DNA from: a virus
IMG/VR virus record: IMGVR_UViG_3300044796_000662
Location: 124,001 to 188,000 of that record
Strand: one strand, 5' to 3'
Length of the DNA stretch: 64,000 nt
The notes below the pieces were generated by a model. The model saw nothing but the letters and a program-made list of their open reading frames with translations. It was not told where the DNA came from and searched no databases. The translations under genes and the position numbers were made by a program. This document shows, one piece after another, positions 3,701 through 63,711 of this stretch; within the stretch, counting starts at the first letter, position 1, and every line of letters starts with the position of its first letter.

Positions 3701-3806
3701 GCGGCTTGCCCGCCTGCGTGACCACCGTCTCCCAGTTGCGAGACGTGGGATCGAGGTAGCCGCTGACCGCAGGGCCATAGTTCTTGGTAACGTCGGGGAA
3801 AGTCAT
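759..3806 (-). CDS. Large virion structural protein (baseplate/tail appendage), 1015 aa
   Basis: The N-terminal 45 residues (GYLDPTSRNWETVVTQAGKP, then LLDVELNLQQDI) look like a virion attachment domain. The rest is beta-rich. Residues about 84-156 form a module (GTFTVSAS, then SSQAGVNYKV and LTSAYTGT) that closely matches residues 702-771 of the tail sheath. Residues about 652-731 form a second module (AFSSPLVTITGLT, then GGNNGSFPIAAW) that matches the first module of the 771-residue fibre protein. Residues about 730-790 (NGTPIAGSVTLD, then LSYSYSALRP) resemble another repeated virion motif. Its 3' end overlaps the next gene by one base. The role as an appendage or baseplate-attached structural protein is inferred; no enzymatic motif is visible. 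Confidence 0.8.
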   Translation of the reverse strand: MTFPDVTKNYGPAVSGYLDPTSRNWETVVTQAGKPLLDVELNLQQDIDGGSAEAGVRAAMPSGWISDDFTGSSNPTTAIFVGTAAGSLSGTFTVSASTSVTASVSQTGFLFAGDIISFSSQAGVNYKVLSVTGTAIVLTSAYTGTPSGSATALFGAPNTIQIPNNLIAQVNGWILNVSNTNLAGSPPAHGLNQLVMPAPPAGAGVNRTDVVILEVWRCLLSAAPSTVGKSPAGRIWEYGNVKLDPAQDMSLNFADDILNANVGAETTKRVQIQYRLRVVPGIDVYSYPYGMDDPTMVANSVPAVSTAPDGVTTLFTYSNAGGAGDPGLWIAGDGNPANTLGTVDGYMYAIPLMAVFRRNSSGFARTTNQNGGQVSPAASDRPDGLLSDVIVSRDVVDLRMGVSPVGWNYAELLEKNMTYLFDNALTTEWFTNTYAGTSNGATVLWGDEIGPFPSDGTGPLIGTFDAARRTFSDRPILEVITVAIPVPGGGWANSTVTIDFTSLAIYPYSAFNWAATSGANAIAYDVLGGLFIGSASGKKTVYAKNHITQVLNTGVIPITALSVTFDALTGTGISNETLYLDILVGYPTGNGLTRTPTNNYGSSSFQVVQAIPSGTPYNFSAYANESIDNTHREAQIQYTTSSIAIATQNALTGSGAAATISAFSSPLVTITGLTAMVPEMVGQRILFSGAANGGNNGSFPIAAWLSPTSVQITNSGGVFPDANSGSISWTMNGISFRIPERASAIPTSIQKNGTPIAGSVTLDATGRIATFTNTADWTVSGDTLSYSYSALRPVPAAPTAVELIVWYETRAPQTGRDSIIGTTQTVIPRYISPSLYTLTQGPASEDVGYPFPTAYVQTGGIYNTSGGSYTGEHELNSRSAISIADFNATTGMLRLPVFVPFTPDPEAVTFNRASGSDIDAEGRTFFKSVPSGYVPNAFAQDLSDPIKHKVIQPILAELPTASAYGHKGQLVLILLIRWAVFDEDNGVYFESNLALNTTTASIFRIKGNLLTKRNT
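1614..1853 (-). repeat. 'NNG[ST]F' beta module in the 1015-aa protein
   Basis: This encodes residues about 652-731. The pattern is SAFSSPLVTITGLT, VGQRILFSG, GGNNGSFPI, then PTSVQITNSGG. The same pattern occurs at 14733-14963 in the 771-residue fibre gene. It is an intragenic protein module, not a DNA repeat, because the nucleotide identity looks modest. Confidence 0.65.
3339..3557 (-). repeat. 'SQAG/AYTGT' beta module shared with tail sheath
   Basis: This encodes residues about 84-156 of the 1015-residue protein. Alternating matches to sheath residues 702-771 run through the whole stretch: GTF-V-AS, SQ-G, F-G--I-F-SQAG, Y-V--V, LT-AYTGT and TA-FG. The other copy lies at 58560-58769. Confidence 0.7.
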
Positions 3807-23335: not shown

Positions 23336-24484
23336 TCACCCGGTGAGGACGAAGCCGCTGAGCGACTGCCGAATGAGACCCTGCTGGGCAGTCGAACCAA
23401 GCAGGTTGAGTGGTTGGGGCAGAATCAAACCGCGAGTGATCTGAATCGGCTTGGTTGATCGGTTCTGTATCGTCATCGACACGTAGAGCAGCGTTGGATC
23501 GGACGTGTCTTGAGTGACCGTCGTCTGAAGGAGCCTGTAGGGGTACTCCTCGTCAGAGAGGTACTGCCCGACGACCGTCTCCTGTTGCTGCTTGATTGAC
23601 TGCCAGCGGGTGAACGTCGTCGTGATGTCCGTCACGATCTGGTTCTGAAGGATGCTGCCGTTCGCGATCTTCTTGCCAACGGTATCGACGATGTACGTCC
23701 CGTACCACGTGTGGAACGGGTTGGACCCGCGCCGCGTGAACATGAGCTTCTGGGTCTCTTGGAGAAGCAGAGCTTCGTCCGTGACGTTCGCTGTCTCGCC
23801 TGTGTTGCCGTAGCGCCAGTCGTTCTCGTAGTTCAGCCCACCGCACCGCCGGCAGTCCTGGTACTGCGTCGTGTACGAGACCTGTACGAAGTCGTTGTAG
23901 CCCTTGAGGGGCTCATCGAAGACGATGAGACGCGTCGGCCGCGGTGACACTGAGGTCGAGGGATCGATGACCAGGCTCCACCCTGGCGCCACCTGACGTC
24001 CTCGATACTCGCGGCCGGTCTGGATGCCGAACGTAGCCGCCAGAGTGCTTGTCGAGCTGACGTAGATGCTTGCCCCCGTGCCCATCCCTGCGGTCACGAG
24101 GCCGATCTGCGAACCATTGGTCGTGAAGGCGAACTCAGTCCCAGCCTGCTGGTTCAAGATCTGAATGAGCTGGCCAGCCTGCATACGGTTGGTCGCCGGA
24201 GCAGTGATGGTGATGGACGGCCCCTGATTCACTGAGACCACCATCGTGTCGTTGACCCCGGTCGTGATGGTGAACGGCCCCACAACCGTCCCCGTCGTCG
24301 AGGCTGGAACCTGCACGCCGTACGAGGGGATCTGGTAGGAGCCGTTGTACAGAACCGAGACCGACTGGATGTTCGAGATCGGCTTGAGCGGCACCACCGT
24401 CTGGTGGTCGAGGGGGCTCACGAAAAGCGCCTCGTCCACGACGAAGTGTGGGCACACCTGGTCGATCTGGCGGTCGTAGCTCAC
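23336..24484 (-). CDS. gp25/W-like baseplate wedge protein with inserted module, 382 aa
   Basis: The start is GTG at 24484, overlapping the upstream stop (GTGA). C-terminal residues about 235-290 (EALLLQETQKLMFTRRGSNP, HTWYGTYIVDTVGKKI) resemble the gp25/gpW line with G.n...YG. C11 (CPH) and the CRRC pair (211-214) may bind a metal. Residues 68-160 are a separate module: GPFTITTGVNDTMVVSVN, ITITAP and STSTLAATFGIQTG. It is strikingly like sheath residues 880-968 (GPYNITLGVNDQLIISVN). Position before the gpJ-like gene fits a sheath-initiating wedge protein. The gp25 call is probable rather than certain. Confidence 0.65.
   Translation of the reverse strand: MSYDRQIDQVCPHFVVDEALFVSPLDHQTVVPLKPISNIQSVSVLYNGSYQIPSYGVQVPASTTGTVVGPFTITTGVNDTMVVSVNQGPSITITAPATNRMQAGQLIQILNQQAGTEFAFTTNGSQIGLVTAGMGTGASIYVSSTSTLAATFGIQTGREYRGRQVAPGWSLVIDPSTSVSPRPTRLIVFDEPLKGYNDFVQVSYTTQYQDCRRCGGLNYENDWRYGNTGETANVTDEALLLQETQKLMFTRRGSNPFHTWYGTYIVDTVGKKIANGSILQNQIVTDITTTFTRWQSIKQQQETVVGQYLSDEEYPYRLLQTTVTQDTSDPTLLYVSMTIQNRSTKPIQITRGLILPQPLNLLGSTAQQGLIRQSLSGFVLTG
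24005..24283 (-). repeat. IN-like module shared with tail sheath
   Basis: This encodes residues about 68-160 of the gp25-like protein. The matches to the sheath copy at 57969-58235 run from GPFTITTGVNDTMVVSVN to LAATFGIQTG. The pattern resembles flagellin-hook IN motifs. Confidence 0.65.
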
Positions 24485-37421: not shown

Positions 37422-40400
37422 TCAGGGGGTCGAAGCCGGGGGCAGCGCAGCTAGCTGAGACTGCGCGTTCGCGAGTTGCTGTTGTGTCGTGTAGAGCTGG
37501 CTTTCCAAGTTCTTGAGCGTCTGCGTGGTGTCCCCAGGCGCGACAACGTTCGGTTGGGACAGAGCCTTGATCTGCGTCTGGAGGCTAGAGATCTGACTCT
37601 GGTACCCTTGAATCTGTTGCGTGAGCTGCGCCCTCTGCGCGTTACTCTTGACCGAAGCTCCGAAGTTCTGCCAGTTCTGCGAGAGGGAAGACAGTGCGCT
37701 GTCCGCTTGCTGCGCGATGGCGATCGGGTTGTCCGTCTGCCCAGGCCCACCTGGTCCGTATGGCGGAGTAACGTTCGCGAACCCGTTGCCCGATGTTCCG
37801 AACTCGACGTTCTGCACAAGTTCCTGGTCGCTCTGCGCGATGAGTTCTTGCTGGCTGGGGTCGAGGTTGGTGGGGTCGCCACGCAGCGCGTTCTCGTACT
37901 GCTGGTGCACCTGGTCGAGCTGGTTGTAGAGGTTGTAGAGGAACGTGTCGATCGTGTTCTCCACTTCCTGAGGCGTCATCGGCACGGCCTGACTATCGTT
38001 GACCGGCACCGGGGTGTTCGTAGCGGCGGCCGTAGCCGGAGCGAGGTTGCCCTGATCCGGTGTCGCAGCATTGGGCGAGGAAAGCGTGGAGACGCTGTAC
38101 CCGTTGCCCGAGGAGATGAAGATGAGGTCCGCACGACCGAGCAAGCACGCGCACTCCGTGTCTGAGGTGACGTCGCCCGTCTTCGGAACCATCTCGTAGA
38201 GCGTCAGGCCGTTCGAGAGCTGCCCAGCTTCGACGCTGTTCGGCACACCCGCTTGCTGCGGGGAGTTGAGTGTGGTGGCTTTCGGGTCGCCCAACATGGG
38301 GTACGCGCCGGGAGTCGTGGGCGGCGTGTAGTATTGCGGCCCGGTGTCTGGGTTGACGAAGCCTGCGGTCTGGAGATCCTCGGGGGTGAGCGTAGAGAGC
38401 GTAGCTGCCGGGTTCTGGTAGGCGCTCGTGACAGACGTGATCCCCTGCGCCTGTGCGTTGAGCGTGGCGTAGAGGTCACCACCGAGAGCGGTCTGCTCCG
38501 AGACAGTGGCCATGCTGTCCCGTTGGCCTTGTTGCTGCACGACCAGGTTTCCATCCCGAAGCATGACGCCACGGCCGTAGCGGAACACGCCCACGACCTC
38601 GAACCCACGCTCATCCGAGACCGGCCGAATGAGACCCGAAGCCCCTTGCAAGGCTTGAATTCCTCCAGAAGTGCCCTGGATGTGCAGGTTCTTGTTCGGG
38701 AAGATGAGCACCTCTTTGATCACATCCGCCTTGTCATACGCGTAGACGTACGCGCCAGCGGAGTTCAAACCGTACTGGTAGCGGTTGTTGAGATACTGCT
38801 CGCGCACACGCGTGTCGGTGTTTGCAGCGTTGAAGGGCGCGAGCACTGCACTTGCTGTCTGATTGGCGGCGTTCGTGAAGGCGGTCTTCTTCGCAGCGAG
38901 CACGTCTGGGTTCGTCGAGGACTGTGGCCGGTGACCCGCGACTTGACCCGTCTGATCCGTGGTCCCTTGAAAGGAACGCGTGAAGAGCATGACCGCGTTC
39001 GGGTAGCCTACGATGCGACCCGTCTTCGAGTTGCGAAGGATGAGAGGGTCGTATGGGCTTTGGCTGCCCGCATTCGGAATGGGAGGCGTCGGCGGGAAGG
39101 TGGCCGCCGTGCCCATCTTCAGGTTGAACGAAGCGCTCTGGGAGAGCTGCTTCGAGCTGTACGATACCTGGCCCGACGCTGAAGTGGTGGGGGTGCCCTG
39201 CGGCGCGCTGGCGAGCGAGAGCGTTCCAATACCCTGAGGGGCGATGAACTTCTTACGCCGAGCGGTCAAGGTCAACGAGGTTGTAGCTCGCCCACCGTAC
39301 GCGATGTTGTGGCTGATACCGCTGACGTACCAGACCTCGTCCTTGGGGGCGATGTAGACAGGGAACCCAAGACGCAGCTCTGGACGGATGGGGATCGTGA
39401 CCGTTCCACGATGCCGGCGGGCGTTCCACCTGTCGAGCATGTCTAGGCCAACGTAGAACATCTTGTTGGTGTCGCCCAGGAACTCCGAGTTGAAGGTCTG
39501 CGACCGCCAACCGTACTGACGAAGCAAGTGGAAGTCCGTAACCGACGTCATCGGCGTCAGCTCTTGGGCAAGGCCGTAATCCACGTTGCCGCCGTAGCTG
39601 CCCTGCATGATGATCTGCGTGACGACTTCCGACTCGGAGGAGGAAAAGTCCCAGTCGATGATGTCGATGTCCTGGATCCAGGAGATCGGCTTGTTCCCGA
39701 GCACGTCCAGGTTGTAGAACGGTGGCTTGAAAACAACGCTCCCGTCCACGTCCATGTACAGCTCGAAGCCGATGGCCTCTTTCGCGGCCGTACCGAGTTC
39801 AAGCTTGGTCTGGTACTCGGAGTTCCACAGGGGGACTTCGACGTTGAGGTTGCTGCGGAAGGCTACGACCTCTTCATCCGTAGGGTCGTAGACCGCCTGA
39901 CCCGAGTTGGGGCCGCCCATCGCCTTCGCGATGCTCTTGGCAACCCAGTGCTTGCCGACCTTTGTTGTACCCGTGGGAACGTACTCGTTCAGAACGTCGC
40001 CCCGGATGGAGTAACCGTTCGCAGCATAGAGCATCAAGTTGCTGCGGATGCGTTGGAACCGCTCCTCCCAATAGATGGCGAGGTCGGCGAAGATACCGTT
40101 GAAGAGGTTCTTCTGCGCGCCCGACTCCCGGTACTGAGCCACAAGGCCGCCCGTACCGACGATGATGTCCCCGAAGGACTGCTGCGCGAGGGTCCAGATG
40201 ATGTCGTAAGGATTGGCACCGAAGAAGGCGTTGCCGAAGAGCGCCATGCCCATCGCGCCCGGGTGCGGCGACGTGAACGCGCTGTTCGTCGCCATCTTGC
40301 AGACTTCCCACCACTTGAGGATGTCTGCGCAGTGGATGGAAACCGAGTGCTCGCCGCCCGAGTAGCTGTCGTTGACCTCCGTGACGAGACCCCAGAAGAT

Positions 40401-40736
40401 CGGGTAGTATTGCGGCAGACCCTCCACGAGGAAGTGGCCCTTCGTGTAGATCTCGACCTCCATCATCGGGCAGATGATGGGGCTGTTGTCGAAGTAGAAG
40501 TCGTCTATGGCATGCCGGGGCACGGACAGGTTCAGGCTCGCCGAACCGGGCACACTGTCGATCGACAGGTCCACCTGGACCGACGTGATGTACTTGTTGA
40601 ACGGGAAGCTCTTGTTGCAGACCGGGCAGCCGATCACATCCGAGTTGCCGTTGATGAGTACGATGGAGTCTGGCGCCGTCACAACAGTGGGGCGGGCTCC
40701 GTTGACGTACGTGCCTTGGAAGGGACTGCGGGCCAT
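37422..40736 (-). CDS. Baseplate hub protein, gp27/gpD-like, 1104 aa
   Basis: The N-terminal 520 residues fit the gp27/late-control D fold. These include ITSVQVDLSIDSVPGSASLN, an early CPVC pair (37-40), IFWGLVTEVNDSYSGGEHSV, and the late line GFPVYIAPKDEVWYVSGISH followed by TTSLTLTARRKKF, the closing strands of hub proteins. The C-terminal half is an extra region. It ends in a coiled coil (LTQQIQGYQSQISSLQTQIK, then NLESQLYTTQQQLANAQSQL, about 1030-1095). The spike gene lies 7 bases downstream. Hub proteins form the trimeric platform on which the spike sits. At 1104 residues it is about three times the usual length. Confidence 0.8.
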   Translation of the reverse strand: MARSPFQGTYVNGARPTVVTAPDSIVLINGNSDVIGCPVCNKSFPFNKYITSVQVDLSIDSVPGSASLNLSVPRHAIDDFYFDNSPIICPMMEVEIYTKGHFLVEGLPQYYPIFWGLVTEVNDSYSGGEHSVSIHCADILKWWEVCKMATNSAFTSPHPGAMGMALFGNAFFGANPYDIIWTLAQQSFGDIIVGTGGLVAQYRESGAQKNLFNGIFADLAIYWEERFQRIRSNLMLYAANGYSIRGDVLNEYVPTGTTKVGKHWVAKSIAKAMGGPNSGQAVYDPTDEEVVAFRSNLNVEVPLWNSEYQTKLELGTAAKEAIGFELYMDVDGSVVFKPPFYNLDVLGNKPISWIQDIDIIDWDFSSSESEVVTQIIMQGSYGGNVDYGLAQELTPMTSVTDFHLLRQYGWRSQTFNSEFLGDTNKMFYVGLDMLDRWNARRHRGTVTIPIRPELRLGFPVYIAPKDEVWYVSGISHNIAYGGRATTSLTLTARRKKFIAPQGIGTLSLASAPQGTPTTSASGQVSYSSKQLSQSASFNLKMGTAATFPPTPPIPNAGSQSPYDPLILRNSKTGRIVGYPNAVMLFTRSFQGTTDQTGQVAGHRPQSSTNPDVLAAKKTAFTNAANQTASAVLAPFNAANTDTRVREQYLNNRYQYGLNSAGAYVYAYDKADVIKEVLIFPNKNLHIQGTSGGIQALQGASGLIRPVSDERGFEVVGVFRYGRGVMLRDGNLVVQQQGQRDSMATVSEQTALGGDLYATLNAQAQGITSVTSAYQNPAATLSTLTPEDLQTAGFVNPDTGPQYYTPPTTPGAYPMLGDPKATTLNSPQQAGVPNSVEAGQLSNGLTLYEMVPKTGDVTSDTECACLLGRADLIFISSGNGYSVSTLSSPNAATPDQGNLAPATAAATNTPVPVNDSQAVPMTPQEVENTIDTFLYNLYNQLDQVHQQYENALRGDPTNLDPSQQELIAQSDQELVQNVEFGTSGNGFANVTPPYGPGGPGQTDNPIAIAQQADSALSSLSQNWQNFGASVKSNAQRAQLTQQIQGYQSQISSLQTQIKALSQPNVVAPGDTTQTLKNLESQLYTTQQQLANAQSQLAALPPASTP

Positions 40737-49676: not shown

Positions 49677-50426
49677 TCACACGTTCGGTGGGACCGGAAT
49701 GACCGCCGCGCTGTTGCTTGCGAAGCGGAGCGAGAAGCCCGAACCCGCCTGTCCGTTGGACGAGATGGGAGCGAGGCCCGTGTCGATGAACTCCCCGTAC
49801 TGGGAGAAGCCGTCGATGACGTCAGAGACCTTGACCGAGGAGTTCTCGGCCACCATCGCTGCGTCCGACGTGTAGCTGGCGTTGTACGACTCGAACCAGC
49901 AACCCTCGAAGAAGGTGTACAGCGACTTGACCGCGATGATCGGGGTGGTCGCCGGGTTGAAGATGAACTGCTGCGAGGGCGAGTTGCCGTTGGGGGACGA
50001 CGCGGGCTGCGCGTTCGGTCCAGCGCCGACGTCCTGTTGGACGCTGATCTCGCTGATCACCAGCTCTTGCTTGATGTCGAACGGCCAGCGGTGGTGCTTG
50101 AGCGAGCGGGCGATGCCGTCGATCCCTGCCTTGTAGCCCACCGTCTGGAAGATGTTGGCCGTGTAGAGCAGGGTCTTGTTGAGCGTGAGCGTCATCGGCT
50201 CAGTGACGCCGGGCACCAGCTCGGCGATCTGATCACCGAAGCCGACACCACGCACCGGGTCGATCGTACGAGACTCGTCAGAGCCGAACTCGGAGATCGC
50301 GCCGATCTGCACGAACCCCTGTCCGCCCACGGAGTAACCGTAGACCTTGTTCTTCTGGGAGACGGCTGCGCGCGTGTTCGGCGCAGTCCCCATCCTGTAG
50401 ATGTAGTTCGTGGTCGTGACCGGCAT
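49677..50426 (-). CDS. Probable tail tube protein, 249 aa
   Basis: It is a single-domain beta-rich protein of the size of contractile tail tubes (150-250 residues). Recognisable lines are YGYSVGGQGFVQIGAISEFG, RTIDPVRGVGFGDQIAELVP, GVTEPMTLTLNKTLLYTANI and SLKHHRWPFDIKQELVISEI. It also has a GCWFESYNASYTSDAAMVAE segment. The gene lies just upstream of the chaperones and tape measure, the standard tube position. Tube protein rings surround the tape measure and carry DNA through the sheath. The sheath gene is separated from it by the helicase group rather than adjacent. GAGGGG precedes the start. Confidence 0.7.
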   Translation of the reverse strand: MPVTTTNYIYRMGTAPNTRAAVSQKNKVYGYSVGGQGFVQIGAISEFGSDESRTIDPVRGVGFGDQIAELVPGVTEPMTLTLNKTLLYTANIFQTVGYKAGIDGIARSLKHHRWPFDIKQELVISEISVQQDVGAGPNAQPASSPNGNSPSQQFIFNPATTPIIAVKSLYTFFEGCWFESYNASYTSDAAMVAENSSVKVSDVIDGFSQYGEFIDTGLAPISSNGQAGSGFSLRFASNSAAVIPVPPNV

Positions 50427-52496: not shown

Positions 52497-52931
52497 TTAC
52501 ACCGGCTCGGCTTCGGGCTCCGGCTTCTTCGCGTGCCAGTCGATGAACCGACCCGCCTCGATGGCGTCCTCGTGCTCGTCGAACAGCTCCATGTACTTCT
52601 CGATGCGGTCCCGCACGCCGTCACGCCAGTTCTGCGTGCGCTTGACCTTGAGGATCATGTCCCTGGGCATGAGCGGCCGGTTCTTCGAGAAGTCGTACAT
52701 GATCATCTGGATGATGTCGGCGCCGCTCTTGCGGGTCTGCGCCCCCTCGGTCGGAACCGTCGTACGGATGCGGATACCGACCTTCGGCGTCAGAAAGAGG
52801 TCGTAGGTCACCTCTCCCATCGAACTGCCCTGCTTGGGGTGGAGCGCGTGGAAGGCGCGCTTGAGGAAGGTATCCCACTCCTCAAGCGAAGCCTCCGTGT
52901 ACGTCGCCCCTGCCATGCCCTCTCGCTTCAT
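52497..52931 (-). CDS. Unknown protein coupled to helicase, 144 aa
   Basis: A longer in-frame start exists 219 bases upstream, but that part is only the other-frame reading of the helicase gene and has an Arg-rich composition. I therefore chose ATG 52931, which overlaps the helicase stop (ATGA). The protein begins MKREGMAGATYTEASLEEWD and includes GEVTYDLFLTPKVGIRIRTT, IIQMIMYDFSKNRPLMPRDM and a charged tail. It is a small mixed-fold protein that is not recognised. Translational coupling suggests it is made with the helicase and may be its partner. Confidence 0.65.
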   Translation of the reverse strand: MKREGMAGATYTEASLEEWDTFLKRAFHALHPKQGSSMGEVTYDLFLTPKVGIRIRTTVPTEGAQTRKSGADIIQMIMYDFSKNRPLMPRDMILKVKRTQNWRDGVRDRIEKYMELFDEHEDAIEAGRFIDWHAKKPEPEAEPV

Positions 52932-55900
52932 GACGGCCTCCGGTCGTATGCGGACACCGCTGGGAAGTCCTCCGGGGTCCTCGGGTCGATCGTGTCCGAC
53001 TCGAAGAAGCTGGCGAGCACGGTGGTTGCGTCCGGCGGCTCGGGGGTCGGGTCGTTCTTGCCGGGGACGTTCTGTCCCTTCTTGAGCCCTGCCTCCGAGA
53101 CGAAGACGCTCGGTCCAGCATCTCGCCCGTAAGCGCTCTTGGCCGGGCACACGATGGTCAGGTTTTTCGCTGCGCGGGTCATCGCAACGTAGGCGAGCTG
53201 GCGCTCTGTCTTGAACTCCTCGGCCCGCTCCTTGGCCAGGCGCTCTTGCGCCTCGGGCGGGAGAAGCTCCTCACCCGGCTTCGGCCTCGGCTCGTACGGG
53301 AAGACACCCCTGGCCATGACCACAGAGGTGTTGTTCCACTGCGCGCCCTTGACCGAGTGCACGGTGGAGAGGGTCACGCAGGGCGGCGCCTTGCGCTCGT
53401 TCGGGGGGAGCTTCTGCTGCTCCGCATCCCACTGGTCGAGATCGATGCGCAGATCCTTCGAGGCGGCCACGAGCTTGTCGATGCGCGCCTTGAACTTCTT
53501 GGGATCGCTCGGGTCCGTGTCCAGGTTCGCTGGATCCGGCTGCGCGATCTGGAAGAGGAAGACCACGTTGCCGATCGGCTTCTTCGACGGGTCATCATCC
53601 GGATCGGGCGGCGAGTCGCTCTCTTCCTCGTGTCCCCCAAATACGGGCATGAGCACGTCGCGCAGGGTCGGAGCAGGAGCATCCCTGCGTTCGGGCACAC
53701 CCTTGACGTTGAGGATGTCGCCGAAGAGGTCTTGTGTCGTGTAAGGCTTGTTCTCGCCGGTCAGCCTGTCGTAGATCTTGCCGACCTCTACGGACTCCCG
53801 CATCCCACGAAGAGCGCGGCCGAGGTTCTCCAGCTCCTCACCCGTAGCCCGAACCTTCCAGTTCTCCCAGCGGCGGGCCGGGTCCATCGCGTCCATGAAC
53901 GCGTTGATACCGGGACGGTCGAAGAGATCGAGCGGGTTGACGTTCTTCGAAGAGGTGCCGAGCTGGCGCGCCCTCTTTTCGACGACCTCGTTAACGATGC
54001 GCTCCGACTCCCCCGCCTTGAGGTAGAACCTGTTCGGCTTGTTCAAGACCTCGATGAGCGACTTCTGCATGCGCTCGAAATCCTGACCCGCTGCCAGGTT
54101 GAAGTAGCTCATCACGGTCACGGTCTCGGGGGACCGGAGGAAGCTCGTGCCGCCCTTGCGTGCGTACGGGATGCCCTGGATGATGCAGGCCGTCTCGAAG
54201 TCGTTCTGCTCCATGTTGGTACGGGTCAGAACGGCGTAGTCTTCCAGCGGAGCGCCGGCGTCCACGTCCTGCTTGATCTGCGAGACGACGCTCAGAGCGC
54301 CCGCTGCATGGGTCGGCGGCTCTTGAACGACGATCGAAGACTGCCCCCGCGGCTTGGACGCATCCGGCACCGCCTCCATGGGGACGCCACGGGGGTGGTT
54401 GGTCATGAGCTGGTTGGCGTGATCGACGATCTCGGGCAAGCAGCGATAGTTCGTGCGGATGGTCTTGGTCTTCCACCCGGGCTTGCCGTGGAACTGCGTG
54501 AGCAGCTCCGGACGAGCGCCCACGAAGCGGTTGACGCTCTGCACTTCGTCGCCCACGAGCCATACGGACTTGCCGTCCGAACCGTCGCCAATGTGCTCGG
54601 ACATCATGGCGATGATCTGGTGCTGCACCGTGTTGAGGTCTTGGGCCTCATCGACCAGGATGTGATCGAACATGGCCTGAACGCGCTTGCGCACGATGGG
54701 GTCTCGCTTGAGCACGTCGCGGAACATGATGATCATGTCCGAGAAGTCGCCAAGACGAGCCTTGCCGTTATCGCGCCACTTCGCGAGGAACTCTCCCCAC
54801 TGCTTCATCGCCTTGGGGCTGGTGTCCTTGCAGGGCGGGCTCCAGGTCTTGTCGATGCCCTTGAAGCCGTTGAGCCAGGCGTACCACTCGGCCTGGTCCT
54901 TCTCTTCTTCCGTTCCGGCCATCGCCTTCGCTTGCGCGGGAGTGATGTCGTTCATCATCCAGGACTGGACGACATTCTTCGCCCGCCCCGGCGGATCCTG
55001 GTCCCGGCATTCCTTCCAGATGCGGGCCATGTACCCGCCGAAGGCTCCCGGGGAAGGTGCCCGGCCTGAACGCTGGTCCTGGTCGCCCGCCTTCTTCGAG
55101 GGCGTAGTCATGAGCCACGTGGTGAGCGCGGCCTTCTCCTCAGGCGTGCCGTTCTCGACGACGAACTTGCGGAACATGCCGTGCATCGTCCCGACGTTCA
55201 TCTGCTTGAGCGCGTCGTCGCCGACCTGCGCTCCGATGCGCTCCCGAAGCTCGCGGGCGGCCTTGCGGTTGAAGCTCACGACGAAGATACGAGCCGGGTT
55301 GACCTTGCGGTCCTTGACCAGGTAAGCCGCACGAGCCGTGACCGTGGTGGTCTTGCCCGAACCGGCGCCGGCCATGATGACGACGCGGCCGTCTGTCAGA
55401 GCGGCATCGAGCTGCTCGGGGTCCAGGCGGGCCAGAGACTCGGGGACGGCCCCGGCCTTCGAGGCGGCTGCGGCCGCTGTGGCGATGCCGATGACCTCGG
55501 ACTTGGTAGGCGGAGCGTCCGCCTCCCCGCTCACATCAAGAGCCCGCTTGGCAGCCTCCTGAGCGTCCTTCTGGATGACTGTCAATCGGTCTGCATGGTC
55601 CTTGGTCGCAACGTGTGCCTCTTCACTGAGGACGGGGCCTGCCACCCTCTTGGCGTTGTCGAGGGTCAAGGCATGGGTGTCGTCGAGCGTGGCCGTTGCA
55701 GCGGCATCCACGGCGTTCTGAACATCGCCAGCGCCCGCGACCTTCGCCGCGAGGTCAATCCATGCGCGCACCCGCGCGTTGCGGATCGAGACCGTGGCGA
55801 TTTGACCCATCGCCGAAGCGCCATCGTCGTACGTGGACGCCTGCATGACCAAGTTCACCTCGCGACGTGCGCGGGCGGACTCGAAGACCTTGCGGATGGT

Positions 55901-56278
55901 GGCCGTACCCCCAAGAGAGAGCACGTTGCGGAGCTGGAGGGCCTGACGAGGCAGGCCAGCGCGGCTCGTGGCAAACCGGAACGCCTTGGCCAGCATCTTC
56001 TTGCGCGTCTCGTTGGGCATGTGCCCGGTCAGAAACGCATGGTACGCGTCGCCGTGCTGCGAGTTGGCCTGCTGAAGAAGCCTCAGGCCCCGCTTGAGAA
56101 CGGGGTCCATGGGGTCGTGAAGACCCGTCTTCTCCTTCAGGAACCGGAAGTACGTGTCATAGGCGAAGACGAAGACCACCCATTCGGCGACTTCGAGATC
56201 TCCCACATCCTCGACCGGATCAGAGTGCCCGGTCGGAACTGGCTCAGCGGCGGTGCGACGGTCGTAGCTCATCACCAT
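52928..56278 (-). CDS. UvrD/Rep-type SF1 DNA helicase with N-terminal extension, 1116 aa
   Basis: Canonical SF1A motifs appear in order: Walker A AGAGSGKTT (303-311, K309), Ia SFNRKAARELRERI, motif II ILVDEAQDL with DEAQ near 543-546, and motif III WLVGDEVQSVNRFVGA. They continue with motif IV NYRC, motif V LSTVHSVKGAQW and motif VI LAYVAMTRA. It would unwind DNA 3'-5' with ATP. The first 280 residues have no helicase motif; they are helical with Arg/Ala-rich stretches (FESARARREVNLVMQA) and may mediate partner or virion binding. Its place between sheath and tube genes is unusual, because replication genes normally cluster elsewhere. Starts at 56278 or 56272 are both possible. Confidence 0.9.
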   Translation of the reverse strand: MVMSYDRRTAAEPVPTGHSDPVEDVGDLEVAEWVVFVFAYDTYFRFLKEKTGLHDPMDPVLKRGLRLLQQANSQHGDAYHAFLTGHMPNETRKKMLAKAFRFATSRAGLPRQALQLRNVLSLGGTATIRKVFESARARREVNLVMQASTYDDGASAMGQIATVSIRNARVRAWIDLAAKVAGAGDVQNAVDAAATATLDDTHALTLDNAKRVAGPVLSEEAHVATKDHADRLTVIQKDAQEAAKRALDVSGEADAPPTKSEVIGIATAAAAASKAGAVPESLARLDPEQLDAALTDGRVVIMAGAGSGKTTTVTARAAYLVKDRKVNPARIFVVSFNRKAARELRERIGAQVGDDALKQMNVGTMHGMFRKFVVENGTPEEKAALTTWLMTTPSKKAGDQDQRSGRAPSPGAFGGYMARIWKECRDQDPPGRAKNVVQSWMMNDITPAQAKAMAGTEEEKDQAEWYAWLNGFKGIDKTWSPPCKDTSPKAMKQWGEFLAKWRDNGKARLGDFSDMIIMFRDVLKRDPIVRKRVQAMFDHILVDEAQDLNTVQHQIIAMMSEHIGDGSDGKSVWLVGDEVQSVNRFVGARPELLTQFHGKPGWKTKTIRTNYRCLPEIVDHANQLMTNHPRGVPMEAVPDASKPRGQSSIVVQEPPTHAAGALSVVSQIKQDVDAGAPLEDYAVLTRTNMEQNDFETACIIQGIPYARKGGTSFLRSPETVTVMSYFNLAAGQDFERMQKSLIEVLNKPNRFYLKAGESERIVNEVVEKRARQLGTSSKNVNPLDLFDRPGINAFMDAMDPARRWENWKVRATGEELENLGRALRGMRESVEVGKIYDRLTGENKPYTTQDLFGDILNVKGVPERRDAPAPTLRDVLMPVFGGHEEESDSPPDPDDDPSKKPIGNVVFLFQIAQPDPANLDTDPSDPKKFKARIDKLVAASKDLRIDLDQWDAEQQKLPPNERKAPPCVTLSTVHSVKGAQWNNTSVVMARGVFPYEPRPKPGEELLPPEAQERLAKERAEEFKTERQLAYVAMTRAAKNLTIVCPAKSAYGRDAGPSVFVSEAGLKKGQNVPGKNDPTPEPPDATTVLASFFESDTIDPRTPEDFPAVSAYDRRPS

Positions 56279-56372: not shown

Positions 56373-59300
56373 TCAGAGGCTCGCGCGGAGGTTGAACGTC
56401 AGCACGAGGTAGAGGAGGGGGAAGATCGGCTGGTAGTAGGCCGAGAAGTCGAGCGTCGTGGGGTCGTTCGGATCGACCACTGCGCTCACGCCCGTGTACG
56501 CGCCGATGATCTGCGCCTCGATGAGGCCCTTGAGAAGGGCGGTCATCGAAACCGTGACCTCGTTGGTACGCGAGAGCAGGTACTTCGTGCCGACGAACGA
56601 GTCCAGGATGACTCGGCTCTGCTGCTGCACGAAGTCGCTGATCTGCGTCACCGTGGGGAGACGCGTCAGGATCGTGCTCATGTTCGTCGTCAGAGCAGCG
56701 CGGATGCGGATGAGCGGTTGCAGCTCTTCGAGCACCGTGATGCCTGCGACGGCGGTCTGGTTGGCCGTGACAGGGTCGAGCACCCGGGGGATGCTCGTGA
56801 AGCCCTGGAGGCGGCGACGGTCGTAGGGGGTCGCGACGTCCACCGCAGGCGAGCACCCCGCGCCGGCAACTGCCGCCGCGTAGAAGGTACCGTCCACGAT
56901 CGAGTCGTAGCTTGCGCCCGTCTCGTCCGTCAGGGTGATGTCGGAGCTGTCGGGGTAGAACGCGACGATGCGGTTTGAGAGCAAGCTCCGAACGACCGTC
57001 TGAGCGTTCGTCGGCGACGTGCCCGAAGCGAACCCGATGAAGCCCATCCGCTCCGACTGGTTGCGGATGTTGGATTCCACTTCACAGTGCTGCGTCAGGT
57101 AGGCGTAGACTGCCGTGCTGGTCGCGAGCGGGACGAGGATGTCCGGCTTCACGTTGCCAGGCAGCGGGGTCGCGAGGTTCTGGATGGCCGTGATGAAGCT
57201 CGCGTCCGACGCCTGGTTCGTGTTCGGCACCGCGAGCACCTGGCTGATACCCACGAGCACCGCGCCGTTGAGGATGGCGAGGTACGCCGCGAGGCTGACC
57301 CGGTTTTGCGGGGCCACGACGCCGAAGTTGGCGTTGATGGTCGCTTGCTGCTGGAAGAGCCGGACCGTGAAGTCCTGCTTCATGTACTGGTAGGACACGA
57401 AGTAGAAGTCGCCGACTGCCGGAGCGGTGCCGCTCGGGTTGAAGGTCGTGATCGTGCCCGTGTCGTTCGTTCCGACGCCCACGGTGTTGGAGACGGTGGT
57501 CTCCAGACCCGGGATGGCGTAGGTCGGAATGGCCGAGGTCACGTTGAACGTCTGCGAGACGAGCAGCGTGAAGCTTCCGGATCCCCCGTAGCTGCCGATG
57601 GCGGACGGCAGCACCGTGAAGCGCAGGCCCGTCTTCGCATCGACGTACGTCTGACCAGGGTAGCCAGTTCCGCTCGAACCCGAGGAGTTCGAAGACGTGA
57701 CCACGAAGTTGTCGATCGGGTTCTCGCCGTCATCCCCATCCGTGCCCGGCACGAGACCGATGTTGGTGCTCGTGTTGAACGCGGAGTTCGAGGAGGTGAC
57801 GAAGCCGATGCTCGAACCTGCCGCGCCGACCGTCAACGACTCGAACGTGATGTAGTTCAGGCTGTTGATCTGATCGACGTAGGCAATGGCCGCCGACTTG
57901 AAGCCGGAGGTCGCCATGAGTTCGTCCACGATCTCGTAGGCGAAGACCTGGACCTGGCTTGCCGAGGCGTTCTGCGTGAAGCCGAGTGGCGTGTTCGCCG
58001 TTCCCGTGCCGATGATGATCGACGAGTTGGCGTTGTTGGTCGGGCTCGTGAGGCGGAGCTTGCCCGAGTTTGCGAGAGTACCAACCGAGGCGACACCAGA
58101 GAGACCCGGGGTCGTGTTGATCGCGGTCACGATGGCCGACGTAGCGACCGACGTCCCGTTGGGGATGGTGATCGTGTACTGGTTGCCGTTGACCGAGATG
58201 ATGAGCTGGTCGTTGACCCCCAACGTGATGTTGTAGGGGCCTGCGATGCTGCTCAGGAGGGTTGCCGGCTTGTTGATCGCGCCGGTCGTGCCCTTACCCG
58301 TCGAGAAGGTCTGGAACCCGAGGGTCGAGGTGACAGTACCCTGGTTGATCTCGACTGCCGAGGGGCTGTCGAAACCGCCAGGCAGCGCGCCCGGAACCGA
58401 GTAGCTGTAGATGTAGAACAGTACGTCGCCCGTGCTCGGCCCGATCTGGGAGAAGTTGGCGAGGTTGTTCGGTGCCGTTCCGGAGAACGCAGCGTTGAGG
58501 TCGATGACCTCGTTGATCGAGGCCACGATGGCTGCCGGGCTGTAGTAGCCCCCAGCCGCCGAGCCGAAGACCGCCGTGGTCGAGGGGTTGGTCGTACCCG
58601 TGTAAGCCGTCGTGAGCGTGATGTTGCCGCTCGTGACCGCCTGGACCACGTAGTACGTGCCCGCCTGCGAAGCGAACGTGATGACGTTGCCCGGGAAGAC
58701 GAGCCCGACTTGCGAGGTCGAAGTCGTGACCGTGGCGCTTGCCGTCACATCGAAGGTACCCGTGAGGGCTCCCGTGGGCAGCGTGACCGAGAGGGCCGTG
58801 CCGTCGATGGTCAGGTTGAGGACGTTGTTCGGAGCGGCCGGGATCTGGATGAACCCAGAGTCGCCACCCGACTGGACCGGCGTGACGTGCCCGCCGACCA
58901 CGACACCGCGCTCTGCGGCAGCGAGGTTGGTCGTCACGTTGCTGCCGTTGACTTCCGTGACCCACGTCGCCGAGGACGGCGTGAAGATCGAGTACGGCTC
59001 AGCGTTGCGGTTCGTGAAGCTCGCGTTGTTGGCGGCCGCCGTACCGAACGTCACCGTCACGGTCTCGGGGACCGGCGTTCCGGCGCCCGTCATGAAGGCG
59101 TCGGGGATGCTCTGAACGCCACGCGGCCAGATGACCTGTTGGCTGAGACCAGACGTCGTGCCGAACCGGATCTGCCAGGCGTTCTGGTTCTGGTTCGAGT
59201 CGAGGATCTGGTACGTACCCGCCCCGTACGCCCCAGGGGTCGTGCAGGTCAGGATGAACGTGTCATCCGTAATCCGGTTGTACCAGAAGGTGGCCCAAGC

Positions 59301-60872
59301 CTGGAAGTCGGGCGGGACCGGGTTGGCCAGCGTGACGAGACGCTGAAGTCCGTCCACCGCCGTCACCGTGACCGGGCCACGGTTGACTGCATCACGGAAC
59401 GAGCGACCCACGTAGACCTGAACGAGGTCCGGGCGGTTCGTCACGAGGTCTTGGCGCGCGTTCGTGACCGAGTTGAAGAGCGGCAGGCCAAGGGGCGTGT
59501 CGCGGCCGTTGCCGGTCGTCGGGATTTCCGGCAGCGTGAACTGGTTGGTCGAAACCGTCGCCGGGATCGTCGTGGTGTTCACAACGCGCGTGCACGGGGC
59601 CAGCCAGAGCTTGTCGTCCACGAGAAGGGCGCTGACGAGCGTGTTGTCGAACGGCTGCGCACCAGTCGAGGTCGAACCTGCTGCGATGACGAAGCTCGTC
59701 CCCCAGAGGATGACCGAGACCGACTTCGAAGGGTTGGAGACGATGAAGTCCACACCCTGCACGTAGTCGTTGCGGCCTGGCGAGATGCCGCACGCGACCA
59801 CGTTGGTCACGAGGGAGTTCGGCAGGTAGTCGAACGTGTTCTGCCAGGTGTTGGCCGAGTATTGAACCGTGACCGTGGTCCCCGCTGCCGGAGCGTAGGG
59901 GAGCGTCACGACACCGTTCGTACCGTCGAGGCTCGTCGGGATGACCTGGACGTTGTTGACGAGAACGACCACCTTCGAGGTGTCCGTCGTCGTCACGCCG
60001 CCGCCCGTGCCGTCCGTGACCGGGATGTTGAAGACCCGGAACGCCTGGTTGCGGACCGTCTTCGCACCGGCCGAGAAGCCGAGGATGCCGTTGGCCGTGC
60101 CCGAACCGATGATGAGGTTCTGGGTCGTCGTGAACTGCACGTGGTTCAGACCCGCGTTGTCGGTGAAGACCGACGCCACGAGGTTGGTCACCGCGGCTGC
60201 GTTGATCGCAGAAGCGAAACCCGCCGCCGTGTAGCTCTGTGCCCCGAGCGAGATCGTCGAGGTGACGCCGTTGACCGAGACAGCGAACTGGTCGCTCTGG
60301 CCACCGACCACCACGTACGGCTCGAACGCCGGCGCAACGAGGGTTGCGAGGCTGTTGCTCACCTGGGCCGAGACGTCGTCCTTGAAGGACGTGTCGCCAC
60401 GGTGGAAGTAGTAGGTGACGTTGACCTGGTCGGTCGGCTGCGTCGGCACCTGGAGGGTGATGAGACCCTGCGAACCGTTGACCGCTGCGAGAGCAACCGG
60501 CGTCCCGTTGACCGTAACGGTCACAGCGCTCGTGTTGTTCGAGACCGTCCCGGTCCCTTGACCGTTGGTGATCGGGAAGTTCGCCACCTTGAAGGTGACA
60601 AGGGTTCCCGTCTGGAGGCCGAGGATGAGGTTCTGGGGGTTCGTCGCGTTGACGACCCACTCCTCAGTGACGTCCTCGTTGACGATCTGTTCGTCGGCCG
60701 AGCCGGACGAACCGCGCACGATCTCGACGTTGTCGTTCTCCAGCACTTGCTGGCCGACCCCGATAATGACAGGGATCCTTAGACCCGCCGTCAGGTTCGA
60801 GACGTTGGCTTCAGTCAGCGTCCGCGTGTAAACGCCGGGCGGGACGTAGGAAATGAACGGGCCGAGTGCCAT
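56373..60872 (-). CDS. Tail sheath protein, giant form, 1499 aa
   Basis: The N-terminus (ISYVPPGVYTRTLTEANV) and C-terminus are sheath-like. The latter includes YDRRRLQGFTSIPRVLD, ELQPLIRIRAALTTNMST, TQISDFVQQQSRVILDSFVG and KGLIEAQIIGAYTGVSAVV, the lines that carry the contractile mesh. Sheath subunits contract on infection to drive the tube into the cell. The 1000-residue middle is an insertion. Residues 192-270, 684-860 and 880-968 are three IN-like repeats (IGSGTANGILGF, IGTGTANTPLGF), the second split by the SQAG/AYTGT module at 702-771. Residues 114-157 and 297-343 carry a VTVNGTPV...VNVTYY module. Most sheaths are 400-700 residues. Confidence 0.9.
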   Translation of the reverse strand: MALGPFISYVPPGVYTRTLTEANVSNLTAGLRIPVIIGVGQQVLENDNVEIVRGSSGSADEQIVNEDVTEEWVVNATNPQNLILGLQTGTLVTFKVANFPITNGQGTGTVSNNTSAVTVTVNGTPVALAAVNGSQGLITLQVPTQPTDQVNVTYYFHRGDTSFKDDVSAQVSNSLATLVAPAFEPYVVVGGQSDQFAVSVNGVTSTISLGAQSYTAAGFASAINAAAVTNLVASVFTDNAGLNHVQFTTTQNLIIGSGTANGILGFSAGAKTVRNQAFRVFNIPVTDGTGGGVTTTDTSKVVVLVNNVQVIPTSLDGTNGVVTLPYAPAAGTTVTVQYSANTWQNTFDYLPNSLVTNVVACGISPGRNDYVQGVDFIVSNPSKSVSVILWGTSFVIAAGSTSTGAQPFDNTLVSALLVDDKLWLAPCTRVVNTTTIPATVSTNQFTLPEIPTTGNGRDTPLGLPLFNSVTNARQDLVTNRPDLVQVYVGRSFRDAVNRGPVTVTAVDGLQRLVTLANPVPPDFQAWATFWYNRITDDTFILTCTTPGAYGAGTYQILDSNQNQNAWQIRFGTTSGLSQQVIWPRGVQSIPDAFMTGAGTPVPETVTVTFGTAAANNASFTNRNAEPYSIFTPSSATWVTEVNGSNVTTNLAAAERGVVVGGHVTPVQSGGDSGFIQIPAAPNNVLNLTIDGTALSVTLPTGALTGTFDVTASATVTTSTSQVGLVFPGNVITFASQAGTYYVVQAVTSGNITLTTAYTGTTNPSTTAVFGSAAGGYYSPAAIVASINEVIDLNAAFSGTAPNNLANFSQIGPSTGDVLFYIYSYSVPGALPGGFDSPSAVEINQGTVTSTLGFQTFSTGKGTTGAINKPATLLSSIAGPYNITLGVNDQLIISVNGNQYTITIPNGTSVATSAIVTAINTTPGLSGVASVGTLANSGKLRLTSPTNNANSSIIIGTGTANTPLGFTQNASASQVQVFAYEIVDELMATSGFKSAAIAYVDQINSLNYITFESLTVGAAGSSIGFVTSSNSAFNTSTNIGLVPGTDGDDGENPIDNFVVTSSNSSGSSGTGYPGQTYVDAKTGLRFTVLPSAIGSYGGSGSFTLLVSQTFNVTSAIPTYAIPGLETTVSNTVGVGTNDTGTITTFNPSGTAPAVGDFYFVSYQYMKQDFTVRLFQQQATINANFGVVAPQNRVSLAAYLAILNGAVLVGISQVLAVPNTNQASDASFITAIQNLATPLPGNVKPDILVPLATSTAVYAYLTQHCEVESNIRNQSERMGFIGFASGTSPTNAQTVVRSLLSNRIVAFYPDSSDITLTDETGASYDSIVDGTFYAAAVAGAGCSPAVDVATPYDRRRLQGFTSIPRVLDPVTANQTAVAGITVLEELQPLIRIRAALTTNMSTILTRLPTVTQISDFVQQQSRVILDSFVGTKYLLSRTNEVTVSMTALLKGLIEAQIIGAYTGVSAVVDPNDPTTLDFSAYYQPIFPLLYLVLTFNLRASL
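57969..60299 (-). repeat. Three IN-like repeats in tail sheath, one with a nested module
   Basis: The copies lie at about 60063-60299, 58293-58823 and 57969-58235. The middle copy carries the 70-residue SQAG/AYTGT module (58560-58769) between VTLPTG and YYSPAAIVASINE. The terminal line GTANxxLGF marks copies one and three. Confidence 0.65.
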
Positions 60873-61033: not shown

Positions 61034-61480
61034 CTAGCGATGCTCGCCGCCGGGTCCCCTCTGTGCCCTGACCGAGTCGATGGCGACCTTGGCGAGATTG
61101 CGCCTCGCTGTACGTCCGCCGTCGCTCATAGGCTCATAATCAATGTAATCGCGGTTGTTGTGGCGGATCAGGGCATGGGTTCCACCCTGTTTACGGGCTT
61201 CGGCCTTGACCTTCTCCCGTTCGTGGATCTCCGCCCAGCGGACTTCCGCATCCCGCCCGACAAGCTTGTCCGCCGTAGGATAGTCGTTGTCGTGGACGCC
61301 CGTGTTCGCCGTAGCGCCCGTCTGGGAGCCCTTGAAGGCGAAAGCCAGTGAGTCCGCGTCCCACACTCGCGGTGCATCGCGCCCGCACGAGGGGCACTCG
61401 TGCGTCAGGTGCTCTGCCATCTTGAGGGTGCGGAGGAACTCGACGTTGCAGTCCTCGCACGCGAACGTGTACATGGGCAT
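61034..61480 (-). CDS. FmdB-type zinc-ribbon protein, 148 aa
   Basis: The N-terminus is the FmdB zinc-ribbon pattern (MPMYTFACEDCNVEFLRTLK), with C8, C11, C29 and C32 as likely Zn ligands, followed by a helix-rich charged C-terminus (EVRWAEIHEREKVKAEARK). In bacteria FmdB-type proteins are small putative regulators. Here the 110-residue tail is phage specific. It lies between the 397-residue structural gene and the sheath gene. GAGGAT lies before the start. It may act in late-gene control or virion assembly, but this is not shown by the sequence. Confidence 0.75.
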   Translation of the reverse strand: MPMYTFACEDCNVEFLRTLKMAEHLTHECPSCGRDAPRVWDADSLAFAFKGSQTGATANTGVHDNDYPTADKLVGRDAEVRWAEIHEREKVKAEARKQGGTHALIRHNNRDYIDYEPMSDGGRTARRNLAKVAIDSVRAQRGPGGEHR

Positions 61481-61496
61481 GGGATCCTCATTTGGG

Positions 61497-62690
61497 TCAG
61501 CGGATGCGCTCGAAGTCGTTGTTGCGCCCGTTGAAGATGGGCAAGGAGGGGTAGATCAGGGGGCTTGCGCCGCTGGCGAGGGGGGCGACCTGGTCTGACG
61601 GCGTATTGGGGTCGGCCGGCTGACCGGCTGCGTTTGTCTGCCTGACACGACTGATCGTGAAGGGCATCGGCGCGTGCACTTCCCAGTCCGCGCGCAACTG
61701 GAGCGACAACGAGGCCGAGTACATGTAGATGTCGCCCGTCTCATCCATGGGCTCTTCGCTCTCACCGCCCATGGAGAGGTCCACGATCTCGATGCCCTCG
61801 TTCTCCAGGTACGGCTTCTTGTCCGCCCAGAGGTACATCATCGCGAGGTCGGAGATCTCTTCCATCTGGATCGGGTCTTGAGCCACGGCTTCCAGTTCGA
61901 AGCTGACCTCCCACTTGCCACCGTACGCCCGCGCCACATCCACACGGTCCGGGTAGACCACGACCGCGCACTTGTCCCCAACGCGGGCACGCTTGCCGAA
62001 CGCCATGACCACACCGGGCAGTGTCTTGAAGTCCGAGACGTTCCAAAAGAACGGGATCGGACCAAGGGACGGGACCGAGTAGCGGTACTCCGCCATGACC
62101 CTCGCCCCGGGCTTGAAGCGGGTCTTGAAGACAATCGCTCCGGTCGAGTAGTTGACAACGTAGTCAGTACCCTCCGTGAGCAGCCAGTTGCCGTTCTCGT
62201 AGATCCGGAGCGTGCCCTTCGAAGGAGGGTTCTGAAGCTGACCCTCAGTCTCGATGCCGGTCTGAAAGAAGAGCAGAGGTTCTTGGGGGACCGTGATGAG
62301 GGGGTCAATCGTGTACATGCCAGGCTCGGAGGCGTTCTTGGGCACGGACAAGATCTCGATGTAGTAGACCCCAGGCAGGATCGGCATCTGCTCTTGGTTG
62401 TTCGCGAGGACAGCCTGATCCTCGCGAACCCACTCGATAGGATGCGCGGGCGTACCAAAGTAGAAGAGACCCACGTGGCTCTCGACCGTCCCCATGAAGT
62501 TGTCGCCAGCTAGGGAGATCTTGTTGGCACTCGATCCCTTGACGATGATCCCGTACTGCGGACGCTCGTTGAAGCTGTACTTGTTCTGGATGTACGGAAC
62601 GATCTTGCTGTAGATGGGGTGGCGCGAGAACGAGTCTTTCAACTCGTTGATGATGCGCCGCTTGAGAGCCCCAATGATGTAGTAGTACAC
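61497..62690 (-). CDS. Probable virion protein, 397 aa
   Basis: The start is GTG at 62690, preceded by GAGG that overlaps the stop of the actin-like gene, so translation is likely coupled. The protein has no repeats and a mixed fold: IIGALKRRIINELKDSFSRH, YGIIVKGSSANKISLAGDNF, VYYIEILSVP, LTEGTDYVVNYSTGAIVFKT and VVVYPDRVDVARAYGGKWEV. It looks globular with balanced composition, unlike the fibre genes, which suggests a core role. Position upstream of the sheath gene suggests neck, tail terminator or tail completion. I cannot name a family with certainty. Confidence 0.7.
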   Translation of the reverse strand: MYYYIIGALKRRIINELKDSFSRHPIYSKIVPYIQNKYSFNERPQYGIIVKGSSANKISLAGDNFMGTVESHVGLFYFGTPAHPIEWVREDQAVLANNQEQMPILPGVYYIEILSVPKNASEPGMYTIDPLITVPQEPLLFFQTGIETEGQLQNPPSKGTLRIYENGNWLLTEGTDYVVNYSTGAIVFKTRFKPGARVMAEYRYSVPSLGPIPFFWNVSDFKTLPGVVMAFGKRARVGDKCAVVVYPDRVDVARAYGGKWEVSFELEAVAQDPIQMEEISDLAMMYLWADKKPYLENEGIEIVDLSMGGESEEPMDETGDIYMYSASLSLQLRADWEVHAPMPFTISRVRQTNAAGQPADPNTPSDQVAPLASGASPLIYPSLPIFNGRNNDFERIR

Positions 62691-62697
62691 GTGGGCC

Positions 62698-63711
62698 TCA
62701 GGCGTGTTCCTCCATCGCCAGGACCAGGAGGCCCTCTGCGACAGCGGTCATGGGGTCCTTCGCCATCCGGATCTCGCTGATCTCGATGGGGAAGCCCTTC
62801 TTCTTGATCTCGGAGAACTCCGACTTGAAGACCTCCTCGAAACCGATGGCCTTGCACGTGCCGCCGGAAACGACGAACGGGATCGGCCCTGGCAGCTCAA
62901 TGCTCGACTGCGCCTTGCGGAACTGGATGGCGATGTTCTCCAGGCAATGGCGGATGAGCGCGCGGATGTAGAGAGAGATCGCTTCGGCGTCCCGATCATC
63001 ATCCTTGTGGTTGATGAGGTCCACGCCCTTCTCCTTGATGGTGCACATGCGCGAGGCCGTAGACCCGGTCGCCTTGGCTGCGTGGGAGTCGATCCAGTCG
63101 CCGCCACGTGCAAGAGAAAACTCCAGACCCTTGATGGTCTGATAGGAGAGCGCCACGTTGCACATGCCCGAACCGAATGACACGGACAGGCCCGAGAATG
63201 TCTCGTCGGCGCACTGGCTGTAGATGATCGCCATCGCCTCGTTCATCGGGTGCGCCGTGAACCCGTGCTCGGTGATGATCTTGCGGAAGATCTCCGTGTG
63301 GTAGACGACGTCCTGGTCCGGCATGTCCACGGGCGCCGCGGGGACGCTGTAGAAGCAGTGCTCGTCCTTGCAAGACGGCTCTTCGAGTACACTCTTGACG
63401 AGGAGACTCAGGATCTGCTGCGCCTTGAGTTCCCCGGCCGCGATGACGCCGTTGCTCAGGGGACGACGCACTTCCCTCTTGAAGAGGTTGGCCATCGTCA
63501 GAGCTGAATCGCCGATGACGACGAGCTGGCCGTCGCCCATCTCGATGTAATCGACCTTCGAGAGCCGGAGCTGCTTCTTGGCCTCCGATTCGAGGTCGAT
63601 GAATGCGTCGCGGATGCGGTTGGTCGAGACCTTGTCGCCGACCTGGCGTGCCGAGACGATGTTCATGGTCCCAATGTCGAGACCAATGCCCTTCCTCTTG
63701 TCCGTGCTCAT
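62698..63711 (-). CDS. Actin-fold ATPase-like protein (ParM/MreB/FtsA superfamily), 337 aa
   Basis: Phosphate-1 is GIGLDIGTMNIVSARQ (D12, G14, T15). Connect-1 is MNEAMAIIYS (156-165). Phosphate-2 is LSVSFGSGMCN (175-185), where the usual Asp is a Ser (S178). It is followed by ARGGDWIDSHAAKATG, resembling the GG..I. line of MreB and FtsA. The adenosine motif is FVVSGGTCKAIGFEEVF (279-295). These proteins bind ATP and can form filaments that move or position DNA, plasmids or virus particles. A ribosome binding site AGAGGA precedes the ATG, and a stem-loop lies upstream. The Asp loss may mean altered hydrolysis. Hsp70-like or sugar-kinase folds are less likely at this size. Confidence 0.8.
   Translation of the reverse strand: MSTDKRKGIGLDIGTMNIVSARQVGDKVSTNRIRDAFIDLESEAKKQLRLSKVDYIEMGDGQLVVIGDSALTMANLFKREVRRPLSNGVIAAGELKAQQILSLLVKSVLEEPSCKDEHCFYSVPAAPVDMPDQDVVYHTEIFRKIITEHGFTAHPMNEAMAIIYSQCADETFSGLSVSFGSGMCNVALSYQTIKGLEFSLARGGDWIDSHAAKATGSTASRMCTIKEKGVDLINHKDDDRDAEAISLYIRALIRHCLENIAIQFRKAQSSIELPGPIPFVVSGGTCKAIGFEEVFKSEFSEIKKKGFPIEISEIRMAKDPMTAVAEGLLVLAMEEHA

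Follow-up and report, generated by a model that had tools for sequence, protein, structure and literature searches.

A very large tail sheath of a giant soil phage with beta modules inserted in its probably outward-facing part

The multi-domain tail sheaths of contractile phages were surveyed by Evseev et al. in 2022, who described a 'type 3' class in large phages, in which extra, often Ig-like, beta domains lie away from the tube between an N- and a C-terminal core part (PMC9230969). These sheaths reach 1283 aa (LacPavin_0818_WC45), with further versions of 1248 and 1086 aa, and those of the largest jumbo phages possess five or more domains (PMC9230969). The additional domains of the T4 and 812 sheaths are likewise placed farther from the tube, and adhesion, appendage formation and cementing are named as possible roles of such domains (PMC9230969). 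In the cryo-EM maps of Bacillus phage G, the core was fitted by residues 1-119 and 219-579 of gp178 and the outermost domain by residues 120-218 (PMC8570332). For the family considered below the only isolate is Tunturi 5, whose tail is a 167-nm contractile one typical for myoviruses as seen by negative stain; both extended and contracted tails were recorded by EM (PMC11924767).

The window analyzed here, a 64,000-nucleotide stretch taken from a 362,937-bp virus record (positions 124001-188000), contains a large example of this large modular design already described for big phages. The product of its gene at 56373-60872 (-) is the contractile-tail sheath of a giant soil phage. With 1499 aa, it exceeds the usual sheath size two- to threefold, owing to a string of small Ig-like and related beta modules inserted in what is very probably the outward-facing part. 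The 400-700 residues that the initial annotation gave for known sheaths hold as a typical size and not as the limit, since versions of 800-1283 aa are described (PMC9230969).

The sheath gene and its neighborhood

The gene is one intact ORF running from ATG to stop, with a GAGGAG ribosome-binding site just 5' of the ATG, and codes for a protein of 155.7 kDa; there are no Ns or ambiguous bases in the window. In the whole 362,937-bp record, phrog_2839 'tail sheath' has a single match, namely the 1499-aa protein (E 5.6e-24). PF04984 and PF17482 match nothing in that record, the 1499-aa sequence included; PF17482 does, however, match 10 of 16 relatives of the protein. Thus, no second sheath gene was found in the record by phrog_2839, PF04984 or PF17482. 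A Pfam scan of the whole protein returned nothing significant, the matches coming from its relatives or from isolated modules, and sequence searches of the PDB gave no match with the protein or the family profile and chance matches only with the module profiles.

A tblastn search with the sheath found matches in 203 phage records, mostly pairing residues 1154-1495 with tail sheaths; the two best matches, the Tunturi_5 'tail sheath' (1204 aa) and a product of the unannotated uncultured phage LR745208.1 (1652 aa), cover both halves of the protein. In an hhalign profile alignment against phage G gp178 and relatives (gp178 plus three actinobacteriophage sheaths), residues 1119-1496 pair with gp178 194-576 (probability 100, E 5.5e-45) and residues 8-54 with gp178 2-48 (E 6e-4, 30% identity). 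This bears out the initial annotation in placing the sheath core at the two ends of the protein.

The gene lies in a tail cluster, with homologs of Tunturi_5 gp324, gp325 and gp329 nearby. The gp324 homolog at 61497-62690 (-), annotated as a tail terminator in Tunturi_5, carries a DUF2460-like stretch of its own (residues 156-207, E 0.001); module A of the sheath is marked by this weak family too (see below). Between it and the sheath gene lies an FmdB-like zinc-ribbon gene (61034-61480, -) matching gp325, with homologs in 105 related loci. The homolog of the virion structural protein gp329 (49677-50426, -; 45%) is a candidate for the tail tube by position, and this assignment stays positional because no match to a T4 gp19-type tube was obtained. 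Taken together, the agreement of homologs, synteny and structure prediction (next section) supports the sheath identity, an uninterrupted gene and the insertion of beta repeats.

Adjoining the sheath cluster at 62698-63711 (-) is an actin-like protein of 337 aa, with a match to Pfam Volactin (haloarchaeal actin) at E 2.5e-74 and homologs in 64 related loci; the volactin literature is mostly on Haloferax. Directly 3' of the sheath gene, within the tail cluster, a 1116-aa UvrD-type helicase is encoded at 52928-56278 (-), with homologs in 50 related loci. Farther away, the C-terminal stretch of a 1104-aa protein (37422-40736, -) resembles the MscS_porin domain (E 6.5e-5).

Module anatomy and predicted fold

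Beta modules fill the about 1,065 residues between the two core parts (about 55-1118), which corrects the roughly 1000 middle residues noted in the initial annotation. We delimited the following parts, all on the minus strand. The N-terminal core part (residues 1-83; 60624-60872) runs from YVPPGVYTRTL to RIPVIIGVGQ. It is followed by module A1 (84-160; 60393-60623), module B1 (188-278; 60039-60311), module A2 (269-345; 59838-60068), which ends in a conserved NTWQ.TFD, and domain X1 (346-440; 59553-59837), which is conserved in nearly all complete members of the family. Module A3 (441-540; 59253-59552), with an internal insertion, and domain X2 (541-635; 58968-59252) come next. Module B2 (672-865; 58278-58859), recognized by a profile match to B3, is interrupted by a nested insert of 76 residues (701-776; 58545-58772) present in few close relatives only. 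Module B3 (866-980; 57933-58277), a variable stretch (981-1052; 57717-57932) and domain C1 (1053-1156; 57405-57716), the last third of which matches phage G 184-218, lead to the C-terminal sheath core (1157-1499; 56376-57404).

Profile-profile comparison found three copies of the VTVNGTPV-type module A (84-160, 269-345 and 441-540) with pairwise probabilities of 98.5-99.7, correcting the two counted initially. The three IN-like repeats reported earlier were recovered as the copies of module B (180-278, 672-865 and 866-980), with probabilities of 97-99 for two pairs and 85 for the third. Against a maximum of 9.6 bits in 500 shuffles of the sequence, the A1 and A2 profiles give the other A copies 20-62 bits, A1 scores only 10.6 bits with the A3 profile, and B1 versus B3 gives 36-41 bits. 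B2 reaches 6.9 bits in the single sequence, below the shuffle maximum, and its assignment rests on the family profile. Module A is of an Ig-like/DUF2460 type: A1 scanned alone matches TIG at 23.1 bits against a cut-off of 20.9, Big_15 matches more weakly and below its cut-off, and DUF2460 matches 24 of 25 module A copies with E up to 0.1. Module B takes its IN-like label from weak matches to Flagellin_IN (PF07196, the flagellin hook IN motif) in 4 of 29 copies (best E 0.0029).

The same modules recur in other proteins of this phage, a clear case of a sheath sharing its modules within a single phage. A copy of the nested insert, about half identical (iE 2e-20), lies at 3339-3551 (-) in a 1015-aa protein (759-3806); a module A copy (9415-9558, -; iE 3e-11) in a 1389-aa protein (5959-10128); and a module B copy (23990-24307, -; iE 9e-9) in a 382-aa protein (23336-24484). 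The last of these has a weak baseplate/gp25-like match, the sole such clue among the three module-sharing proteins. With the nested insert as query, the viral scan gave nothing beyond a contig identical to the window, and there was no match among the phage records.

As for the fold, AlphaFold2 was run with family alignments on residues 352-1499 and on a complete 1182-aa relative. The models, with mean pLDDT of 85.8 and 84.0, respectively, both show many beta-rich segments in series, followed by a C-terminal core of mixed alpha/beta type; the pTM of these monomer models is 0.55-0.62, and the relative placement of their domains is therefore unreliable. In Foldseek searches of the PDB both were nearest to contractile-tail sheaths, and all listed matches were contractile-tail proteins; for residues 352-1499 the top match was the phage 812 sheath (8q1i; TMt 0.72, E 6e-13). 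Among viral models (BFVD), the best match was the 1117-aa tail sheath A0A6J5LIZ5 (E 2e-31), with phage G gp178 next. The predicted models differ from one continuous ordinary sheath fold, the alternative that the initial annotation had set against an enlarged sheath.

The position of the insertion indicates where the additional mass lies. Between the core parts that align, phage G gp178 has 145 residues and the present sheath about 1,065; in phage G this segment includes the protruding domain, and therefore the extra residues have been added in that stretch. Profile comparison detected no similarity of modules A and B to the short phage G segment, and we accordingly reject a derivation of the modules from it. 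The extra sheath mass very probably faces outwards. Because the insertion coincides with the protruding domain of phage G, and the extra domains of T4 and 812 lie away from the tube, an extra outer layer on the tail is well founded as something we infer rather than observe. The decorated outer layer suggested initially is an idea already published for large phages in general.

The split core also bears on whether the long chain might be a precursor, from which a phage protease excises the modules before or after tail assembly to leave a sheath of normal size. Jumbo phages do process their head proteins extensively (PMC13282480); however, with the core divided between the two ends, excising the middle would leave two chains, and we consider such processing very improbable.

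Relatives and conservation

In scans of viral contigs, a profile scan confirmed 295 relatives and a second scan 122, the best 80 being kept from each and pooled with three genome-assembly loci. The pooled sequences include 82 complete relatives, non-redundant at about 88% identity, of 1164-1764 aa, the longest lengths depending on the start codon chosen; one of them is the contig identical to the window. Their sources are numerous metagenomes plus one isolate and a deposited 485-kb genome, and their lengths fall into groups of around 1164-1312 and 1406-1542 aa, plus two longer ones. The longest member (about 1764 aa) is encoded at 7746-13280 of L119, a 155-kb contig assigned by binning to a Verrucomicrobiota MAG; both the binning and the start codon are uncertain. 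Each of the 18 jumbo records checked (275-485 kb, the isolate Tunturi_5 included) contains exactly one sheath gene, and in all 18 it belongs to the large modular family. In a large clade of soil jumbo phages, such a very large sheath is the norm, with no other sheath detected.

Nearly every complete member has the module order A-B-A-X1-A-X2 ... C1-core. One or more B copies are added in the long group, whereas the short group lacks B2, B3 and the nested insert and has no B copy in its middle. Identity between the length groups is 44% in A2 and 35% in A1 and the core, falling to only 18% in residues 981-1052. Relative to an 85%-identical sequence (L007), dN/dS is 0.08-0.43 across every module, values that indicate purifying selection on the sheath gene throughout. 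The corresponding dN rises from 0.03-0.04 for the core parts to 0.16-0.24 for the B modules and nested insert (about 4-6 times the core); such faster change of the outer modules would be expected under relaxed constraint as much as under surface display.

These data also bear on whether a sheath and a neighboring beta-repeat protein were joined through a fusion or an assembly error, the merged genes or read error against which the initial annotation had cautioned. Size alone speaks for it. Against it stand the 82 complete non-redundant relatives from the sources named, a dN/dS well below 1 throughout versus the closest relative, and the N- and C-terminal core halves at opposite ends of a single frame. 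On these three grounds we reject such an error, which has next to no probability left.

Possible working and comparison with described sheaths

We favor a reading, with a probability of roughly 0.6, in which the protein is the single sheath of a contractile jumbo phage, with a split core, a conserved inner belt bracing the subunits and a variable outer zone contacting glycans. By homology and predicted fold, residues ~1-60 and ~1119-1499 form an ordinary core wrapping the tube, which, by extension from phage G, T4 and 812, would polymerize as a six-start helix and contract. As the alignment shows, the chain exits the core at the site of the phage G protruding domain, crosses the ~1,065 module residues and returns. 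The conserved inner series A-B-A-X1-A-X2 would most likely be a belt bracing neighboring subunits. The variable zone at ~636-1052, in which modules appear to be gained, lost and exchanged with other putative virion proteins, would most likely form the outermost surface, and most likely provide weak multivalent contact with envelope glycans. We separate a belt from an outer zone because of the conserved module order, the absence of B2, B3 and the insert from the short group and the contrast in identity.

The modules may serve in adhesion or stabilization, and the computed data favor neither. One could suppose that they are cement only, tying neighboring subunits and rings together and stiffening the tail without any host contact. 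The conserved A-B-A-X1-A-X2-C1 order in nearly all complete relatives, a conservation of A2 between the groups that equals or exceeds that of the core (0.44 versus 0.35), and the added domain of phage 812, which touches the core of a neighbor (cited in PMC9230969), are all in its favor. However, the 636-1052 zone is variable, gained or lost and fast-evolving, unlike a fixed subunit contact, and the T4 extra domains are supposed to be non-essential for sheath formation (PMC9230969); we hence regard a purely cementing role as doubtful. Equally tentative is the proposal of the sheath as a display surface, with a conserved Ig-like belt and an exchangeable outer array drawn from the module pool of the phage, which would bring the whole tail, rather than its fibers alone, into host contact.

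Alternatively, separate tail whiskers or a wrapping fiber, as on some jumbo phages, might dock on the modules. In phage G, whose sheath is the closest classical one, an outer coil surrounds the sheath (PMC8570332), Erwinia phage Y3 has hair-like tail appendages (PMC13282480), and CBB bears whisker-like structures (PMC5259590). Yet the phage G coil is seemingly uncoupled from the sheath, which at 579 aa implies that a large sheath is unnecessary for it, and our analysis identified no partner protein; docking is, thus, improbable. With Tunturi 5 as a cultured member of the clade, the purpose of the extra sheath domains is directly testable.

Among the closest described sheaths is gp326 of the Tunturiibacter phage Tunturi_5 (XOB77769.1, 1204 aa), which belongs to the same family, with both halves homologous at 32-35% identity and the neighbors gp324, gp325 and gp329 shared. 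It differs over residues about 560-1068, where B2 and B3 lie and where it has no match. Both core halves also align with Bacillus phage G gp178, known from cryo-EM maps, in which the 145-residue segment with one protruding domain and no detected A or B replaces the ~1,065 residues. Two further oversized sheaths match the predicted fold at low identity, namely A0A6J5LIZ5 from an uncultured phage (14%) and the 1137-aa tail sheath of cyanophage S-TIM5 (10%), and the 587-aa, three-domain sheath of Staphylococcus phage 812 is the best core match among solved structures. Of the sheaths in the Evseev survey, those of phage G and the mycobacteriophages were compared, and they are distant relatives of this family. 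As in type 3, the 1499-aa sheath has three or more domains, with the extra ones inserted between the core halves according to alignment and models, and module A among these is Ig-like, judging by its TIG, Big_15 and DUF2460 matches. In contrast to the surveyed versions, members of its family are mostly longer and contain A and IN-like B modules that recur in a set order. By its testable features, the protein is therefore a large new member of the known type 3 class, and what is new here is the size range, the breadth of the clade, the division into fixed and variable zones, and the sharing of modules.
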